Of a stretch of DNA of 47,141 bases, positions 32,300-41,530 are shown one piece after another; the stretch's first letter is position 1, and every line of letters starts with the position of its first letter. This stretch comes from an uncultured Acinetobacter sp. (GTDB lineage Bacteria; Cyanobacteriota; Vampirovibrionia; Gastranaerophilales; Gastranaerophilaceae). The notes under the pieces were generated by a model. The model saw only the letters and a program-made list of their open reading frames with translations. It had not been told where the DNA came from and did not search any database. The stretch spans positions 1 through 47,141 of the forward strand of contig ONVC01000002.1 of assembly GCA_900321205.1 (NCBI GenBank), written 5' to 3'. Position numbers and translations under genes: made by a program.

Positions 32300-34090
32300 T
32301 TATATACTGCCGAATTTAACGAGGTTTTGTTTTCTCATTCTGATATTTTCAGGAGTAACTTCAACAAGTTCATCATCTCCGATATATTCAAGACATTCTT
32401 CGAGTGTAAGCTCTTTGTGTGCCTGAAGTGTTACCATAACATCAGCGGTAGAGCTTCTCATGTTGGTAAGTTTTTTAGTTTTACAGATGTTTACAACGAT
32501 ATCCTGAGGTCTGTTACCTTCGCCGATTATCATTCCTCTGTAAACTTTTGTATGCGGAGTTACGAAGAATACACCTCTGTCTTCAAATTGTGCGAGTGCG
32601 TATGGGATTGCTTCGCCTTGTTCGTGAGCAAGGATTGAACCGCTGCGTTGCTTAGGAATATCGCCTGCGTATGGTTTATATTCGTCAAAGGTATGGTACA
32701 TAATACCTTCGCCTCTTGTCATACGGATAAACTCACTGCGGAATCCGATTAAACCTCTTGCAGGGATAGAAAATTTAAGAACAGTTCTGCCGTTAGCGTT
32801 GCTCATAGAATTCATAATGGCTTTTCTGCCTGAAAGTCTGTCAATTGCACCGCCTGCATATTCTTCGGGAACGTCTATAAGTAAATCTTCAAATGGTTCG
32901 CATTGTACACCGTTAATGGTTTTATAAATTACTTCCGGTTTTGAAACCTGGAATTCATATCCTTCCCGACGCATTGTTTCTATTAAAATACCGAGGTGGA
33001 GTTCGCCTCTGCCTGAAACTTTAAAGCAGTCTGTTGAATCTGTGTCTTCAACACGGAGGCTTACATTCTTTTCAAGTTCGTCATAAAGTCTTTTTCTTAA
33101 CTGTCTTGATGTTACAAACTTACCTTCCTGACCTGCATAAGGACTGTCATTAACTGAAAAATTCATCTGCAAAGTCGGTTCATCAACTTTGATAAGCGGA
33201 AGCGGGTTAATGTTGTTCATGTCGCAAAGAGTTTCACCGATTTGAATGTCTGAAAATCCTGCAATACCTACGATATCACCTGCTTCGGCTTCCTGTATTT
33301 CAACCCTTCCGAGGTCTTTGAAACCGAATAATTTTGTTATTTTACCTTTGCTTACTTCTTCTTCTGCATCAACCCATGCAACTATGTCCTGAGAGTGAAC
33401 AACCCCGTTAACAATACGACCGATAACAATTCTGCCTACGTATTCGTTGTAGTCTAATGTTGTTGCTCTAAACTGGAACGGTTTAGCTGCATCACCTGCC
33501 GGCTCCTGAATGTTAGCCAAAATACAATCCAGCAGAGGAACCATGTCTTTTCTTTCATCATCAAGGTTTTTAATTGCAAAACCGTTTAAGCTGCTTGCAT
33601 AAATATATGGAAAATCGATTAAATCTTCTCTGTCAGTAAGCTCTGTGAATAAGTCAAATACTTTATCCAGAGTTCCGTCAGGGTCAGCTGCCGGTTTATC
33701 AATTTTGTTAATAACAACAATAATTTTTATTCCGAGTTCTAACGCTTTGGAAAGTACAAATCTTGTTTGTGGCATCGGACCTTCTGCTGCGTCAACGATT
33801 AAAAGTGCACCGTCTACCATACCTAATACACGTTCAACTTCACCTCCGAAATCTGCGTGACCGGGGGTGTCAACAACGTTAATCTTTACGCCTTTATAAT
33901 TAATTGAAATGTTCTTTGAAAGAATTGTAATTCCTCTTTCTCGCTCCAAATCGTTGCTGTCCAGAACTCTTTCCTGAACCTGCTGACCTTCCCTGAAAAC
34001 ACCGCTCTGCTTTAACATGCAGTCTACAAGTGTTGTCTTACCGTGGTCAACGTGTGCTATTATCGCTATATTTCTGATATTTTTAGTCAT
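32300..34090 (-). CDS. typA: Translational GTPase TypA/BipA
   Basis: 596 residues, EF-G-like without domain IV. G-motifs: the P-loop AHVDHGKTTL (12-21), RGITI in the switch I region, DTPGHADF, NKID (about 127-130). The TypA-specific C-terminal domain follows. It binds ribosomes near the EF-G site and helps 50S assembly and cold/stress growth. GGGATT lies before the ATG, and a TATAAA -10 lies on the minus strand in the 107-bp gap upstream. It is a single-gene unit. Confidence 0.96.
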   Translation of the reverse strand: MTKNIRNIAIIAHVDHGKTTLVDCMLKQSGVFREGQQVQERVLDSNDLERERGITILSKNISINYKGVKINVVDTPGHADFGGEVERVLGMVDGALLIVDAAEGPMPQTRFVLSKALELGIKIIVVINKIDKPAADPDGTLDKVFDLFTELTDREDLIDFPYIYASSLNGFAIKNLDDERKDMVPLLDCILANIQEPAGDAAKPFQFRATTLDYNEYVGRIVIGRIVNGVVHSQDIVAWVDAEEEVSKGKITKLFGFKDLGRVEIQEAEAGDIVGIAGFSDIQIGETLCDMNNINPLPLIKVDEPTLQMNFSVNDSPYAGQEGKFVTSRQLRKRLYDELEKNVSLRVEDTDSTDCFKVSGRGELHLGILIETMRREGYEFQVSKPEVIYKTINGVQCEPFEDLLIDVPEEYAGGAIDRLSGRKAIMNSMSNANGRTVLKFSIPARGLIGFRSEFIRMTRGEGIMYHTFDEYKPYAGDIPKQRSGSILAHEQGEAIPYALAQFEDRGVFFVTPHTKVYRGMIIGEGNRPQDIVVNICKTKKLTNMRSSTADVMVTLQAHKELTLEECLEYIGDDELVEVTPENIRMRKQNLVKFGSI

Positions 34091-34197: not shown

Positions 34198-35838
34198 TTA
34201 GGCTTGTTGTTTTAATGCAGCTTCAGCTTTTCTTTTTGCATCAAGTTTATTTGTGATGTAAATATTCAGGTTCGGGATACCGAGACCGAGTACAAGTCCT
34301 GAGAATAAGTAACCTGATAACTGTGCTCTGTTAAGAACCCTCAGACGTTTCTTAGTTGCCTTTTTAACTGCTTCATCTTTTATGCCGTTCAAATCATTAA
34401 GCATTTCTTTGAACGTCTTGGATATAACCTTGCCGTCTTGTTCTTTGGTTGTTGAAATACCCTGGTCTGCAAGAGTTTTAATAAGTATTTCATCTCTTGT
34501 TTTCAGGTTAGCATAGAATATTTTCTTAAAGTAACCGCTGTTTTCAGTTCCTTTTTTGTAATTTACAACTTTGCAGTTATCATTATCAAATTTAGATGCT
34601 GTTATTCTGTTTACAAAATCACCCAGAACGAGCCAGCTCAAATATCCGAGAGTATCTTTTGTAAGAACTTCTCTCAACTCGTCTTTGTCACGTGCAGAGA
34701 AAATTCTTGAAATAATAGTAATACCGTAAATACCTTTCAACTGGTTAATAGTAGGCATTTTACCCGAGAAGGACATTTTATCCATGAATTTTTTCGGTGT
34801 AAATTTAATCGGATTAATGTTGAGTGTAGAAAGAATCATGCTGAAGAAACCTACACTGCTTAATGCTTTTAATCCAAAGAATCCTTTGCTGTTGTCTTTT
34901 GATCGTCCTTCAACGCCAACGAAACCATCCTGACCTGTTTTTAATTTCGTCAGGTACATGTTAATCGGCTGAACGGATAATCCTATTGCGCAAGATGCGG
35001 CAAAACCCATTCCTGCTCTTGTTTTCATAAATTTATCCAAACCTTTAATGAAAGCATTATCCTTGACTTTTTGGTTTAATCTGATTTGCTCTTCAAAAGT
35101 TTGTTTAACTTTTTGGTTATTGAAAGAGTCGGAAACAATAAATATATCATTTAATAAAGATTTAAGATTTGTTTTGCTTGCAATCTTTTTATCGGTAGAT
35201 TCCAAAATGAAATCGGAACCTGCACCAGTGTCAGCTATAATTTCATTCATCAAAACCGTACGGGATTTATTTGCTTTAGAGCTTGTCCATTTGTTAAAAT
35301 CAGCTTTTTCATTCAATAAATCGTCATAGTATTTTGCAACGGTTTCAATTGTTTTGTCAGAAAGTTTTACAAAACCTTCCGCATCTGAGTTAGCTGCACT
35401 TGGATTGTAACCTTTTGCGTGTTTCAGAGTTTCTTTAATGTATTCTATTTGTGTTTTGTTATTTTCTAATTGTCTTGCTTTGTTGTCAGCCAGGATATGA
35501 AGCGTTTCCGGGGCAGTAAATATTTTATTTACTTTTGTTTCGTATTTTTTTGTTAATGAGCCTGCTATGGCAGCACCGGCTGCTGCACCGAATAAACCTA
35601 CGCAAGAGTCGTTAACCGTACCCATAATTTCACGGCGTCCTGTTTCCATTCCGGCAGCAGGACCGCGTTTAATACCGTCATTAATAGTTCTCGGAGCAAC
35701 CATAGAACAGAAATCCATAAGGTTTGCACCTATCGCCTGGTTTGTTGCCAGATAGCGCAAAGTTACGTCAGCAGCACCTTTATGGCTTATCTGCCTTGAG
35801 TTATTTATATTTTGTTGTTTAATTGGTTGTACCTGCAT
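34198..35838 (-). CDS. Multi-span membrane protein, paralogue B, N-terminal S-H-K-G motif
   Basis: 546 residues, not recognised. N-terminus MQVQPIKQQNINNSRQISHK then GAAD gives H19-K-G21, the F-[KRG]-[GA]-type position with His for Phe. Hydrophobic stretches occur near 30-50, 85-105, 275-295, 330-345 and 500-520. A conserved block reads APRTINDGIKRGPA, then E-x-x-R-R-E. A second block (about 365-420) reads KMPTINQLKGIYG, ISRIFSARDKDEL and LGDFVNR. Both blocks recur in the next gene (35858-37528), so the pair are tandem paralogues. A long charged, helical segment (110-265) joins the hydrophobic parts. AGGG precedes the ATG; the gap to the paralogue is 19 nt, so they are co-transcribed. The C-terminus is basic. 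Confidence 0.85.
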   Translation of the reverse strand: MQVQPIKQQNINNSRQISHKGAADVTLRYLATNQAIGANLMDFCSMVAPRTINDGIKRGPAAGMETGRREIMGTVNDSCVGLFGAAAGAAIAGSLTKKYETKVNKIFTAPETLHILADNKARQLENNKTQIEYIKETLKHAKGYNPSAANSDAEGFVKLSDKTIETVAKYYDDLLNEKADFNKWTSSKANKSRTVLMNEIIADTGAGSDFILESTDKKIASKTNLKSLLNDIFIVSDSFNNQKVKQTFEEQIRLNQKVKDNAFIKGLDKFMKTRAGMGFAASCAIGLSVQPINMYLTKLKTGQDGFVGVEGRSKDNSKGFFGLKALSSVGFFSMILSTLNINPIKFTPKKFMDKMSFSGKMPTINQLKGIYGITIISRIFSARDKDELREVLTKDTLGYLSWLVLGDFVNRITASKFDNDNCKVVNYKKGTENSGYFKKIFYANLKTRDEILIKTLADQGISTTKEQDGKVISKTFKEMLNDLNGIKDEAVKKATKKRLRVLNRAQLSGYLFSGLVLGLGIPNLNIYITNKLDAKRKAEAALKQQA

Positions 35839-35857
35839 GTTTTTCCCTGTTTGCTAT

Positions 35858-37528
35858 TTATGCTGTTTTTTGTTGCTTGTCAGCACGAAAGCCTGCTGTC
35901 AGTTGCGAGTACTGAACATTAAGCGGTGTTACTTTATCTTCTTTCTTGCTGTTTTCGGTTTGTGTGTTATTTTGTTCCTGAGCAAGTTTCAGAGCCTGCT
36001 CATGTTTACGTTTAGTTTTTCGACGTGTAAATATTGGTATTATTAATCCCAGTAATGCTAATGATACACCTAAGTTGGTTAATTGGCAATAAGAACGGTA
36101 GTTAACTGCTTTTTTAAGTTCTTTTTCTATAATTTCTGTCTGTTCTTTTGTTGGTTTTACACCTTTTAATGCTTCTTCCGTTTTACTTACAACTTCATTT
36201 GATGATTTGATATTTACATCTTTCATCCAGTGTTTAAACCTTTTCAAGAACCCTTCATTACCTTCAAGAGGTTTCATGTCATTCAGAAGTTTAACGCCTG
36301 TCTTGTTTTGAATGATAGTTGCAGCACCTTTTGCGGCAACGTCACCCAGGTAGTATAAACTTGCAAATGTTGCGATATCTCTTACGGTGGCTTCTGCAAG
36401 CTCGTTTTTGTCATCTGCTGCTGCCATACGTGAAGCAAATGTCGTGGTAGAGATGATTCTTGCCTGATCCATTGTCGGGAACATGCCTTTAAAATCAAGC
36501 ATCTTCATATTAGGCATTTTCGTTAATGATAACAATGATACTGCGACCATTGATGAAATTGAGATTAATTTTTGTTTTAATAAACCTTCTTTTGCTTTTG
36601 GATTTTCCTCAATATTGTCTTTTCCTTTTGCAAAGTCATCATAAATAGGAGCACCTTTTGTTCCTGAAACTTTACCTGTAATCCAGCGGTTTATGTACTG
36701 CATAGATGCAGCAAGCGGAAGAACAACCGCTAAACCCAAAAGGCTCTTTGTTCTTACAAATTTTTTGTTAACTTTGGCAAATTCGCTGATGTTCATTTTC
36801 CCGTCAGCTCTCTGAAATTCGCGGAAAAATTTAACCGAATCTTCAAGCATTGAGTTTACCGACTGTGCGTTAATTTTTTCAACCGTAATATTTTCTGAAA
36901 CTTTTGTTTTTTTAATCATTTCATCGGTAACTTTACCGACTTCTTTTCTCATATCAGAATTTTTGATGTCTTTTCTTGAAATATCTGCGAGTTGTTTTGC
37001 ATATTCATCAATATCATCTTTAAGTATTTCTGAAAATTTGACGTGTTTGTCGCCGTCAACGCCTTCAATATTTTCGATAAGTTTCTTTAGAGATTCTTTG
37101 ACTTTATCATTAGAAGATGCTCCTTCATAGTATTCGGAAGCCTTCTGTATCATATCTATACTTGCCCAGCTTCTTGACATGTTTACACCCTTAGGCATAA
37201 ATGCAGGGTTTAAGCATTTTGCTATGCCGAGCGTTATAAAACTCGGAATCAAACAGTTTACAATCAATCCAGATGACTCACGTCTGAAGGCTTCAAATCC
37301 GGCAAACCAGTTTGTCATGCTTTCAACAATTGTTCTCGGTAAAATAGCAGAAAGCATGTCAATGACTGCTACGTTAATCATTGGCACTTGTTCACATTTC
37401 TGAATACCTGCAAGCGCAATTGCACCAAGACCTTTAAAACTTGGATTGTTAATCCCTTCTTTTTGTTGACGGGTTAAACTGCTATTTACGCCAGTAGTAC
37501 TGTTTTCTACACCGATTTTATTTATCAT
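35858..37528 (-). CDS. Multi-span membrane protein, paralogue A, N-terminal S-F-K-G motif
   Basis: 556 residues, not recognised. N-terminal polar stretch, then N-P-S-F31-K-G33-L-G, then a hydrophobic region beginning at about 34. Blocks shared with paralogue B: LPRTIVESMTNW followed by E-x-F-R-R-E, and MFPTMDQARIIS, ASRMAAADDKNELAEA, YYLGDVA. Hydrophobic stretches lie near 35-60, 90-110, 270-290, 320-340, 410-425 and 485-505, with a charged helical part (125-255) and a basic, Gln/Asn-rich tail. Probably an inner-membrane protein with a large soluble domain. First gene of a two-gene unit; TATAAT on the minus strand (37564 to 37559) lies 30 nt before the ATG, with no strong Shine-Dalgarno. Related to the protein at 34198-35838 by tandem duplication. 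Confidence 0.85.
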   Translation of the reverse strand: MINKIGVENSTTGVNSSLTRQQKEGINNPSFKGLGAIALAGIQKCEQVPMINVAVIDMLSAILPRTIVESMTNWFAGFEAFRRESSGLIVNCLIPSFITLGIAKCLNPAFMPKGVNMSRSWASIDMIQKASEYYEGASSNDKVKESLKKLIENIEGVDGDKHVKFSEILKDDIDEYAKQLADISRKDIKNSDMRKEVGKVTDEMIKKTKVSENITVEKINAQSVNSMLEDSVKFFREFQRADGKMNISEFAKVNKKFVRTKSLLGLAVVLPLAASMQYINRWITGKVSGTKGAPIYDDFAKGKDNIEENPKAKEGLLKQKLISISSMVAVSLLSLTKMPNMKMLDFKGMFPTMDQARIISTTTFASRMAAADDKNELAEATVRDIATFASLYYLGDVAAKGAATIIQNKTGVKLLNDMKPLEGNEGFLKRFKHWMKDVNIKSSNEVVSKTEEALKGVKPTKEQTEIIEKELKKAVNYRSYCQLTNLGVSLALLGLIIPIFTRRKTKRKHEQALKLAQEQNNTQTENSKKEDKVTPLNVQYSQLTAGFRADKQQKTA

Positions 37529-37558
37529 ACGCTATTTACACATATTCTACCTAAGTTG

Positions 37559-37564
37559 ATTATA
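37559..37564 (-). promoter_or_regulatory. -10 element for the paralogue operon
   Basis: Minus-strand TATAAT 30 nt before the ATG at 37528. Further upstream (37624-37639) lie two TGTAA/TTACA half-sites with an 11-bp period, close to but not matching HLR1 spacing. Confidence 0.5.
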
Positions 37565-37764
37565 ACAACTTACATATATATTTAAAAGCACGACAAAACA
37601 AAAATTGCCTTGTTTTTCCTAATTGTAAAGAGAATGTAAAGATGAATTTTTGATTGTTTTTTCCGTAAAAAAAATGTTTTGTTTTTAAATACAAATAATC
37701 TTCTGATTTTTATCATGAGAAACAAAAAAACGATGAATAAAAGAACTTTATAAACAAAAAATAT

Positions 37765-37782
37765 TTTGTAAATTTTTGTAAC
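37765..37782 (-). promoter_or_regulatory. HLR1-type box upstream of the structured-RNA candidate
   Basis: The minus strand reads GTTACAAAAATTTACAAA, matching the HLR1 consensus at every position. A possible plus-strand promoter overlaps it: TTGTAA (37776-37781), a 17-nt spacer and TCTAAA (37799-37804). In cyanobacteria an HLR1 that overlaps a promoter usually means repression by RpaB; direction here is inference. Confidence 0.45.
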
Positions 37783-37804
37783 ATTTTTTAAGGGTAGGTC
37801 TAAA

Positions 37805-38111
37805 TGCCCTCTGTGTGACTGAATAAGTAGTCTTAAAACAAAAAGCTGTTTTAACGAGGTTATTTATATACAAAATAAATAATCCTTTTGGATTACTTCC
37901 CAGGTAGCTTAAGAAGGGGTATGTAAAATGCTAAAATAGTAATGTAAGTCGAAGGCAACGAGTGATATTGTCGGATTGTCGACCAAAAAGTATGATTAGG
38001 CATTGTGTGTGTGTTCGGCTTACCTCTTTAAAAACCAAAATCTTTTCTTCATAATAATTAGCCTTGCTCCTTTTGTTTCTCTTCCGAAAGGGGCATTATT
38101 CTTTTGTTATT
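37805..38111 (+). ncRNA. Candidate structured non-coding RNA in the 630-nt gene-free region 37529-38159
   Basis: No ORF with coding character covers this stretch. Serial hairpins occur on the plus strand: GACT/AGTC (37817-37820 with 37829-37832), an 8-bp stem TTAAAACA/TGTTTTAA (37833-37840 with 37847-37854), an 8-bp stem TTATTTAT/ATAAATAA (37860-37867 with 37875-37882), and a long-range 10-bp stem GTAAGTCGAA/TTCGGCTTAC (37944-37953 with 38014-38023) enclosing about 60 nt. A final 9-bp hairpin (38066-38074 with 38086-38094) is followed by ATTATTCTTTTGTTATT, which looks like a terminator. I found no tmRNA, SRP, RNase P or riboswitch hallmark; 6S-like function cannot be excluded. The 5' end is taken from the weak promoter at 37776-37804. 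The rest of the region (37529-37764) is AT-rich upstream sequence of the paralogue operon. 38112-38159 shows nothing. Confidence 0.5.
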
Positions 38112-38159
38112 AAACTTTCATAGTCTGCGGATGAAAAACGTGGTAATGGGTATTATTCT

Positions 38160-39173
38160 TTATTTGAACAGTTTTTTATTTAGTTCGTCTCTTGTTTTGT
38201 TAAAGTTTTTATCCGTGTTATTTGGTACGGATTTTTGTATTGCATCAAGAAAAGCATGTTCTTTGATTTGTTTTGACGAATCAATTCTTGCCGGAACAAT
38301 TAAGCCGGAGGCTGTAAAATAGTCAATGCTTTTTTTTGATGACAGATATTTAACAAATTTAAGAGCTTCTTTTTTCTTCTTTGAGTTTTTGGAAATAGCC
38401 CAACCTGAAGCGTCAGAGGTTACGGTTCCCGGGAAAGTTGCTATTCCGTACGGAAATTTTGCAGTTTCGCTTATTTTAGGAAACATCCATCTGCCTGACA
38501 GGTATAGTCCGAGTTTGCCGTCAATGAACATCTGAGCCTGAGTAGAACTCCCCACTTGTGCAGGAGTAGGTGCATATCTGCCTTCAAGGTTTTTATAAAA
38601 TTCTGTTCCTTTTTCAAAACCTAATGTTTCGGTATAAGGTGAAGCAAGGTATATGTCACGCTCAAAACTTACTCCGTAGTGTTCTTTTGTGCTGATTTTT
38701 CTTATCAGTTTTTCAAAATCTTCAAAAGTCCAGTTACTGTTTATTTCTCCTGTTATATTTTTATTGTAATAAAAAACAAAGTTTGAAATGTCTCTCGGAA
38801 TTGCATAAAGTCTGCCATCATATCTCATTGCGTTAAGAGATTGCGGATAAAAGTCCGAAAGATTTTCTGTGTTGCTCAAATCTTCAAGATGAGAGGCGTA
38901 AACGGGAAGGTAAAGATTGTTTATAAAAATTACGTCAGGTTCGGTTGAAGACGCAAACAAAAGGTGAATCTTCTGAAAATAGTTTTGGGGTATGTGTATA
39001 AAATTAATTTTTATATTAGGGTTTTCTTTTTCATAATTATCTATTAATTTATCCAGAATTTTTGTTTCCGTTATTGAACCCCAGGAGGAAAAACTGATTT
39101 CTTCAATATTATTTCTTGTGCAGGCACACATTATAAACGGAATGAGAAACAAGAAGAACAGACGCTTTAGCAT
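38160..39173 (-). CDS. Family 1 extracellular solute-binding lipoprotein
   Basis: 337 residues with a lipoprotein signal peptide: K-R, hydrophobic 5-15, and Cys17 or Cys19 as candidate lipobox Cys (FIMCAC). The mature protein has the bilobal sugar-binding pattern: ISFSSWGS, PDVIFINNLYLPVY, YAIPRDISNFVFYYNK, GTEFYKN, GLYLSGRWMFP, FPYGIATFPG. These proteins deliver oligosaccharides to CUT1 ABC permeases. Its start overlaps the stop of the acidic membrane protein gene by 7 nt (ATGCTAA), so the two are co-translated. No permease or ATPase follows; the nearest permease is at 30166-30972. A sensory role with the neighbouring chemosensory genes is possible. Confidence 0.88.
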   Translation of the reverse strand: MLKRLFFLFLIPFIMCACTRNNIEEISFSSWGSITETKILDKLIDNYEKENPNIKINFIHIPQNYFQKIHLLFASSTEPDVIFINNLYLPVYASHLEDLSNTENLSDFYPQSLNAMRYDGRLYAIPRDISNFVFYYNKNITGEINSNWTFEDFEKLIRKISTKEHYGVSFERDIYLASPYTETLGFEKGTEFYKNLEGRYAPTPAQVGSSTQAQMFIDGKLGLYLSGRWMFPKISETAKFPYGIATFPGTVTSDASGWAISKNSKKKKEALKFVKYLSSKKSIDYFTASGLIVPARIDSSKQIKEHAFLDAIQKSVPNNTDKNFNKTRDELNKKLFK

Positions 39174-41530
39174 AAATCCATCATGAACTCCATTTTATCA
39201 TTAGTTACTTTAATGATAAATTTATGTGTACCGACTTTAACAAGATACTTTTCTTTGTCGTCTTTTTTGTGAGGTCTGACAAATAAAGAGCAGTCTTTAA
39301 GAGTTTTGTATTCTTTAAGCAGAAAAACTTTTTCTCCCATATTTCCCGTAATATAGTACGCTTCTTTCGTATGTATTATTTTGCAGGTGGTGTTTTCGGA
39401 GCACTTTACTGTTTTTATTAGCTCTGCATCTTCACCGTTAAAGCGGCATGGCTCAGGGGTCTGTTTTTCAGGCTGCTTTTTCCTTTTTGCAACAGAGGCT
39501 TCCAATTCTTTTTTAAACGCATCAGAATCGGATTGTTTTTTTAATGCTCTTTCATTTTGTTGTGTCTCAATAAGTTTTAAGAGTTTTTGAGCGTTATCGT
39601 CATTTCGTGTGGTTGTTTTAACAGGAACGGTTAAAACTGGTTCAGTTACAATGCTGTTATTTTCCGGTTCATCATTTTCAAATTCTTCAAAACTCATTGT
39701 GTTGACACTGTCTTCGTAGAATGGCTTAAATGTTACATTAGCAAGGCTTTTTAACAAAGCACTTTCATCAGCTGATTGTTTTTTGGGAGTGTTATCATAT
39801 TTTTTTGGATTAGCTTTTACATCAGCTAAGTCAGGTAATTCGTCTTTTATTGACAGTGTGGAATATTCATATCCGGAAGCAACAACCGGAGCGTCATACG
39901 AAGGTTTATATTCGTTTTGTTTCGAGTCTGCTTTAATTGTCTGAAAATCGTCTGATACCTCAAGTTTTTGATATTCATATCCTTCACTAAAATATACAAC
40001 GGTTGGTTTTGCTTCTGATTTTATTGCTTTTCCGCCCTGTTTTTTCAGTTCTTGTGAAAGGTCGGGCAGCATATCCTTAACGCTGAGCGTAAGAATTTCA
40101 GAAGTTTTTAGTGCTTTGTGTCCTGTATTTTCGCGTATTTTCTTTTCAACTATTTTTGTTCTTTCGGGATTTGTTGTAAAATCTTTTGTAAAATCTTCCC
40201 CAATTTCAACATTCATAAGTTTTTGAATAGTTTTAACATCGTCATTTGTAAAGCTGATACTTTGATTTATTGAATATGTAGAAATCAGGTCTGCAAGTAT
40301 CTGGTCTTTTGTAGGAGCAGCTTTTATAGGTTTGCTCATATATTTTTTCAAATTGTCTATTGTTTCTGAGCTGATTTCAACCTGTAATAAGGCATTTAGT
40401 TTTTTTATGTCTGATTCGGTAAAGTTAAGTTTTGTACTGTTTATGATTTTGTTATAAAACTCTTCGTCAAAAGGTTCCTCTTCGGGAATTTCTTCAGGTT
40501 CGGATTCTGATAGAAAAGAGTTTAACAAATCTGCTAAATCGTCATTGTCGTTGTCAACCTCTTCTGTGTTAAGTGCGGGAGCCTTTTGGGTTTCCTGATA
40601 AAGCAAATCCAAATCCACTACGTTTTGCGGCTCGTCTTCTTCGGCGGTGTGTGTATTTTCTTCCGTAACGGTTGTATATTCGGTAGTTTGGGTATCATAA
40701 GAAAAGTCTGATGATGTTTTTTTGTTTGAATATGTTTTATCCAGTTTATCAATTGTGGATTTCAGTTTTTTAGTCTTGCTTTGTTTCTTATTCTTTTTAT
40801 CTTCTTCTACATCAAGGTTACCCTGGTCACCAACAACTGACGCCATTTTATCCCTGCTTAGCATAAAGATAAAGCCGATTAATACGAGCAATATCGATAT
40901 ACAAAGAATAACAGTCATGTACTCGGAAGAATTTCCTGACGACTGAGAGGTATAGTCGGAAGGTGTAAAGGTATCCGGAGTGCTTTCGGTGTTTTCTGCT
41001 CCGGTGTTATCTTCAGGAGTGTAGGTGGTATCATTTCCGGATTGTTCTTCTGTTGTTGTATCATAATCTTCAGAAGATGAGTCTTCATAGTCCTCTTCGC
41101 TGCTGTCATATTCACCTTTTGATGATGTGATGATATTATCCGGGATATATAAAGCGTTAGATGCACTTAATGCAGGTTCTCCGTTTGTTTTGACCACAAT
41201 CCTTGTGCAGCCTTCTGCTTCGGGAGTGTAAGGATAGGTTGATATCTGAATGCTTTCAATATTATCATATTCATTTATGTTTGGGGCGGAAGCGTTGTTA
41301 TTAGTATCTTTTAGCGTTATAACAAAAGTATTGTCATCAATTTTTTTTGCTTTTACAATTTCATTGTACGGTTTTTCGGTAAACGTTGTAATACTGACAA
41401 ATCCTCCGGAACCGACATTTACTTTTATATCCATAAGAGTATTGTTGTAGTTTTCAGCACCGAAGGCGCCGACTACTGTTAACAATGATGCCAGACACAA
41501 TGCTATTGTTTTCTTCTTATAACGCTCCAT
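39167..41530 (-). CDS. Large acidic single-span membrane protein with AMIN-like periplasmic domain, FimV-like architecture
   Basis: 787 residues. Signal peptide (1-25). Periplasmic beta domain (about 30-120) with alternating I-x-V strands and TRIVVKTNGEP, AMIN-like. An Asp/Ser/Thr/Glu low-complexity stretch (137-204), one span (205-224), then a long very acidic cytoplasmic region (230-640). This holds a duplicated helical unit (361-387 and 419-443: KLNFTESDIKKLNALLQVEI and SISFTNDDVKTIQKLMNVEI). It also holds short repeats LSVKDMLPDL (482-491), LSIKDELPDL (559-568) and GYEYxxL (517, 553). A Lys-rich linker and a small beta domain (695-787) end it. No enzyme motif. FimV of twitching bacteria has the same order (periplasmic glycan domain, span, acidic tail) and acts with a Pil-Chp chemosensory system, as here; homology is not claimed. 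TACAAT lies 6 nt before the ATG (leaderless). Confidence 0.75.
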   Translation of the reverse strand: MERYKKKTIALCLASLLTVVGAFGAENYNNTLMDIKVNVGSGGFVSITTFTEKPYNEIVKAKKIDDNTFVITLKDTNNNASAPNINEYDNIESIQISTYPYTPEAEGCTRIVVKTNGEPALSASNALYIPDNIITSSKGEYDSSEEDYEDSSSEDYDTTTEEQSGNDTTYTPEDNTGAENTESTPDTFTPSDYTSQSSGNSSEYMTVILCISILLVLIGFIFMLSRDKMASVVGDQGNLDVEEDKKNKKQSKTKKLKSTIDKLDKTYSNKKTSSDFSYDTQTTEYTTVTEENTHTAEEDEPQNVVDLDLLYQETQKAPALNTEEVDNDNDDLADLLNSFLSESEPEEIPEEEPFDEEFYNKIINSTKLNFTESDIKKLNALLQVEISSETIDNLKKYMSKPIKAAPTKDQILADLISTYSINQSISFTNDDVKTIQKLMNVEIGEDFTKDFTTNPERTKIVEKKIRENTGHKALKTSEILTLSVKDMLPDLSQELKKQGGKAIKSEAKPTVVYFSEGYEYQKLEVSDDFQTIKADSKQNEYKPSYDAPVVASGYEYSTLSIKDELPDLADVKANPKKYDNTPKKQSADESALLKSLANVTFKPFYEDSVNTMSFEEFENDEPENNSIVTEPVLTVPVKTTTRNDDNAQKLLKLIETQQNERALKKQSDSDAFKKELEASVAKRKKQPEKQTPEPCRFNGEDAELIKTVKCSENTTCKIIHTKEAYYITGNMGEKVFLLKEYKTLKDCSLFVRPHKKDDKEKYLVKVGTHKFIIKVTNDKMEFMMDLC

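Follow-up and report, generated by a model that had tools for sequence, protein, structure and literature searches.

Positions 37944–38104 on the plus strand of the window comprise, as judged from the comparison of related sequences, a real small RNA gene of about 160 nt that is new and specific to its genus. The window is the whole stretch of DNA that was analysed (47,141 nt), contig C59 within a 1.8-Mb draft genome. We consider it very likely that this gene with its boundaries (Table 1) represents an autonomous small RNA with its own promoter and an intrinsic terminator. Sequence comparison established the gene, the promoter, the helices, the terminator, the genus-wide presence and the independence from the neighbors, and transcription of the interval is predicted. 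The first-pass annotation had proposed a structured RNA on the plus strand that may be a lineage-specific regulatory RNA. The strand was right, and the proposal is well supported by genus-wide conservation, own promoter and terminator, compensatory changes and a changing gene context.

Table 1. Features of the small RNA locus (positions in the window).
Feature	Position	Strand	Remarks
HLR1-type box	37765–37791	-	outside the RNA gene; assigned to the divergent paralogue operon
Conserved block upstream of -35	37876–37908	+	conserved in homologues; probable regulator site
-35 element TTAAGA	37909–37914	+	fixed 17-bp spacing to -10 in 53/53 sequences
Extended -10 element TGC TAAAAT	37929–37937	+	TAnnAT 53/53, TGN 50/53
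Small RNA	37944–38104 (3' end about 38104)	+	based on 54-homologue alignment, promoter geometry and helix counts
P1 5' arm	37944–37953	+	pairs with 38014–38023
P2 hairpin	37970–37983	+	37970–37973 with 37980–37983, 4 bp; changes in relatives
P1 3' arm	38014–38023	+	pairs with 37944–37953
Pyrimidine-rich single strand CAAAATCTTTTCTTCATAATAATTAGCC	38036–38063	+	nearly invariant; candidate pairing site 1
Intrinsic terminator hairpin	38066–38104	+	38066–38075 with 38085–38094, T-rich tail

The gene-free stretch that harbors the RNA gene (37528–38160, 632 bp) is the longest in the window, followed by one of 303 bp, which agrees with its earlier description as the only long gene-free stretch. It is flanked by a divergent two-protein operon and a convergent gene for a solute-binding protein (PF01547). 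Both proteins of the divergent operon (34198–37528, minus strand) lack a Pfam match, and related proteins (cluster c1) are found again in further genomes. The same lack of a Pfam match applies to a 787-aa protein encoded directly behind the solute-binding-protein gene (39167–41530, minus strand).

With 37765–38150 as blastn query, 54 of the 58 genus genomes gave a homologue of the RNA, and a covariance model built on the 5' core added G006 and five further genomes. Overall, about 60 of 63 genomes carry the RNA in this genus, which belongs to the order Gastranaerophilales (Melainabacteria) and consists of non-photosynthetic gut relatives of cyanobacteria. The gene is thus nearly as widespread within the genus as a core gene, and the comparison with relatives that the first-pass annotation had suggested revealed homologues in almost every species. 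No RNA copy was found in three genomes of the same genus (G027, G041 and G048), two of which have a completeness of 96% or more; the gene may have been truly lost, may fall into a contig gap or may have diverged strongly. When an order-wide sample was searched with strict filters, 48 of 50 same-genus genomes matched and none of 333 genomes from 50 other genera. A more sensitive search of the other genera gave chance-level matches only. Weak matches of the covariance model in these genera (E 0.3–1.5) were inspected and attributed to chance, with promoter and P1 absent. Two partial DNA matches (G050:C60 and G033:C25) were judged unrelated, and the viral contigs searched contained no match to the RNA. 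The named-genome records that matched the RNA core are designated Candidatus Gastranaerophilales, Melainabacteria, cyanobacterium or uncultured bacterium, and several of them derive from rumen, colon or faeces samples.

The start of the RNA was deduced from the promoter and its 3' end from the terminator. In the alignment of 54 homologues, 37818–37875 showed background conservation, while 37876–37916 was conserved, followed by about 12 variable bases; conservation resumed from the -10 element. With positions counted from the G of GTAAGTC, TAnnAT was located at -12 to -7 in 53 of 53 sequences and was preceded by TGN in 50 of them. The hexamer exactly 17 bp further upstream was TTAAGA or a near-variant in most. 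Since a spacer that is constant in length but free in sequence points to a promoter and not to an RNA loop, we placed the start at 37944. The promoter is of the sigma-70 type (TTAAGA, 17 bp, TGnTAnnAT), and rightward transcription is predicted from it. The earlier assignment of the RNA start to 37805 had to be abandoned, with 37818–37875 at background and 37876–37943 being the conserved promoter region. A longer transcript starting near 37805, with the upstream conserved block inside the RNA, is quite improbable: 37805–37943 of this species does fold well for its composition (z = -2.9), but 37818–37875 is unconserved even among genomes sharing the upstream neighbor, and the conserved block has the -35/-10 geometry with the length-fixed, sequence-free spacer. 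Compared with the relative L002, this species has about 76 bp more between the HLR1-type box and the RNA. The extra sequence (37792–37867) carries the initial stems of the first-pass annotation, folds well alone and is unconserved.

For the 33-bp block before the -35 element, no second near-perfect copy was found in the 11 genomes tested. We concluded from its conservation together with its lack of a second copy that the block is probably a binding site of a regulator dedicated to the RNA gene.

The core of the RNA is formed by the long-range helix P1 and the hairpin P2 inside it. P1 is extended by 5 bp after a G-G mismatch (37955–37959 with 38007–38012 around one bulged base), and P2 occurs in relatives as GUCG/CGAC, AUCG/CGAU or CGCC/GGCG. 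The extended P1 stem was paired in 99.7% of the alignment cells, and the 10-bp stem seen before in the single sequence is therefore kept in relatives. For P1 and the terminator helices together, 98.3% of the cells were paired versus 29–55% with partners slid. All five helix measures exceeded those of all 500 shuffles. Eight pairs of P1 and the terminator helices showed changes on both sides in the homologue alignment, and seven pairs with double changes are located in the terminator hairpin. Compensatory changes as support for the stems were thus found by counting, but a stricter, self-written tree-based covariation test revealed zero individually significant pairs. Too little variation probably explains this, as nine of the fifteen P1 pairs are constant in the alignment. 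Of the five stems originally described, only the long-range one, the hairpin that it encloses and the terminator hairpin stood, whereas the others fall into promoter DNA or unconserved sequence. A third helix inside the core (RUG/CAU), seen by eye, was dropped, as it was broken in several sequences without compensation. Folding energies gave z = -1.9 for 37805–38111 and z = -1.7 for 37944–38105; folding energy alone is insufficient, and the case rests on conservation.

No reading frame was conserved across the homologues, in agreement with the missing coding character noted before. A small protein-coding gene, e.g., ATGATTAGGCATTGTG... with 20 codons, is exceedingly improbable and refuted at the level of conservation. 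A frame of this type can be read in this species and in some others, but substitutions follow base pairing, and the spacing of the conserved anchors shifts by single bases, which disrupts the frame in many species.

The neighbors of the RNA gene vary and occur in both orientations. They include genes that we take from their sequences to be uvrB and ispE, the gene for the solute-binding protein, the paralogue operon and many others. In nine genomes, a gene of an uncharacterised family (cluster c3) is located 56–69 bp upstream of the RNA. The changing neighbors argue for an autonomous gene and not for a leader. A riboswitch or other cis leader was rejected for want of a constant downstream gene. 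That the RNA is a leader or attenuator of a neighbor, or acts in antisense to the solute-binding-protein gene, on which it converges in the window at a distance of about 55 bp, is very improbable: the differences in neighbors and orientation among genomes largely refute such a cis element, and every form of the RNA has a terminator of its own at its end. The own promoter, the intrinsic terminator, the separation from neighbors and a conserved structure without a conserved reading frame are generic features of trans-encoded bacterial sRNAs.

No Rfam family matched the RNA at gathering or relaxed thresholds. The PyrG_leader (RF02371) stayed below threshold (25.6 bits, E 0.29, gathering score 65) and was rejected; its weak likeness concerns the terminator hairpin of the RNA only, and there is no pyrG downstream in the window. 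Identity with tmRNA, 6S RNA, RNase P RNA or SRP RNA was also rejected, as none of these covariance models matched in the window. Together with the differing neighbors, the Rfam scan thus confirmed the earlier failure to recognise tmRNA, SRP RNA, RNase P RNA or a riboswitch. RNase P RNA, SRP RNA and 6S RNA are encoded at other loci in the genus genomes, 6S RNA mostly just below the cut-off. In the source genome the 6S candidate is located at G000:C29:732-912 (41.8 bits, just below the cut-off). The tmRNA was found at other loci in most relatives, and the source draft genome gave only weak, tRNA-sized matches. The RNA resembles 6S RNA (RF00013) in its similar size, its autonomous gene and a rod with an internal loop, but it does not match the 6S model, and the 6S candidate is at a separate locus.

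Two forms of the RNA were distinguished. Six members (L061, L064, L065, L066, L234 and L236) represent a short form, in which promoter and core are kept and the CAAAATCTTTTCTTCATAATAATTAGCC strand is missing. These pass from the core straight into terminators that are unrelated in sequence, so that the comparison itself supports the 3' end assigned to the transcript. The remaining members have the long form with a 3' domain consisting of CAAAATCTTTTCTTCATAATAATTAGCC and a terminator with the loop UCUCUUCC. The hairpin with its U-rich run, as proposed before, exists and is kept, and a T-rich tail follows it in nearly all homologues. Terminator loops are normally free to vary; the loop UCUCUUCC is CU-rich and nearly invariant, and we regard it as candidate pairing site 2. 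Conserved, unpaired CU-rich sites are therefore present, one of them in the terminator loop. The core is the sole part common to all members, which suggests that it is the older part of the RNA.

As the best explanation overall, to which we give an even chance, the RNA would be an autonomous, trans-acting pairing sRNA that is independent of Hfq. Hfq was not found in any of the 13 genomes examined, while control genomes were positive, and an Hfq-dependent sRNA was therefore rejected. The folded 5' core would serve as a stable scaffold and perhaps also as a protein-binding domain, and the 3' half would expose two invariant pyrimidine-rich stretches, CUUUUCUUCAU and the terminator-loop UCUCUUCC. 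Both would pair with several mRNAs at their ribosome-binding and start regions and thereby block translation without Hfq. A dedicated regulator would probably bind the conserved block before the -35 element and set expression. For the pairing mechanism itself, i.e., a block of translation of several mRNAs by the CU-rich stretches without Hfq, our confidence falls slightly short of even.

When 308 simply predicted start regions of one relative were tested, the pairing of both 3' segments was stronger than that of their shuffled versions, by about 2 standard deviations for the ten best, versus about 1 standard deviation for the 5' GU-rich segment. As evidence for targets, we consider the stronger pairing of the 3' segments suggestive only. 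The strongest candidate target, the 8xMP gene, was rejected, since the complementarity was not conserved. In a search for long complementarity to a start codon with the complement of the invariant 3' stretch, AAUUAUUAUGAAGAAAAGAUUUU, only the RNA gene matched closely; other matches were isolated and had 2–3 mismatches. These analyses thus yielded no target. According to PMC4132741, LhrC of Listeria binds its target mRNA by three CU-rich sites and impedes translation, for which Hfq is not needed. The RNA would share with the LhrC family the redundant CU-rich sites (PMC4132741). LhrC is multicopy, however, whereas the RNA described here is single copy with a distinct conserved core, and the likeness is functional and not based on sequence. 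By this analogy, an LhrC-like mode with CU-rich sites directed to ribosome-binding regions is our best-supported guess.

Pairing cannot be the whole original function, since the short forms lack the CU-rich domain. The main rival is an RNA that acts mainly by its 5' core, binding or titrating a protein like 6S or CsrB-type RNAs, with the 3' half as a later accessory, because the short forms have little else. We regard this as conceivable but doubtful. The core is the only part common to all members, the six members that consist of core and terminator branch early, as judged by sequence divergence and not by a species tree, and the internal-loop strand GCAUUGUGUGUG hardly varies despite being mostly unpaired. 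On the other hand, no known protein-binding signature was recognised, the CsrA-like GGA in the P2 loop is unconserved, 6S RNA is located elsewhere, and this reading gives no reason why the 3' stretches are invariant. Going further, the core (P1 and the large conserved internal loop) could represent a new class of ribonucleoprotein RNA controlling a broad process in gut Melainabacteria, and the pairing domain would be a later addition to it. We consider this rather unlikely; if true, the assembly of a two-domain regulatory RNA would be traceable within one genus.

Our literature search revealed no description of a small regulatory RNA from Gastranaerophilales. The RNA represents a new, apparently undescribed family, but its kind is a familiar one. 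It opens a way to study RNA-based regulation in a gut lineage where Hfq was not found, and, as a young family with short and long forms, a case of stepwise domain gain.

The match TTACAAAAATTTACA to the HLR1-type box is located on the minus strand at 37767–37781. A perfect box of this type had been described just before the RNA, which was suggested to be under stress control. The box is present but is not part of the RNA gene. It was found upstream of 7 of the 54 homologues and was absent upstream of the other 47. In the six genomes with the divergent paralogue gene, its distance to the start codon was 238–239 bp in all, while its distance to the RNA ranged from 95 to 177 bp. From the fixed distance to the operon start codon and the varying distance to the RNA, we concluded that the box belongs to the operon. 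Stress control of the RNA by its own box did not withstand these data, and an HLR1/RpaB-controlled RNA gene was rejected, as the box also had no conserved place in the promoter. The TTACA-N5-TTACA box recurs throughout the genus, at G000:C98:6103-6128 and at dozens of places in relatives, and may be the signature of an RpaB-like regulon in a lineage that lacks photosynthesis. Further boxes are located in the window at 622–636 and 32481–32495, and 14 near-matches were counted there versus about 7 expected.
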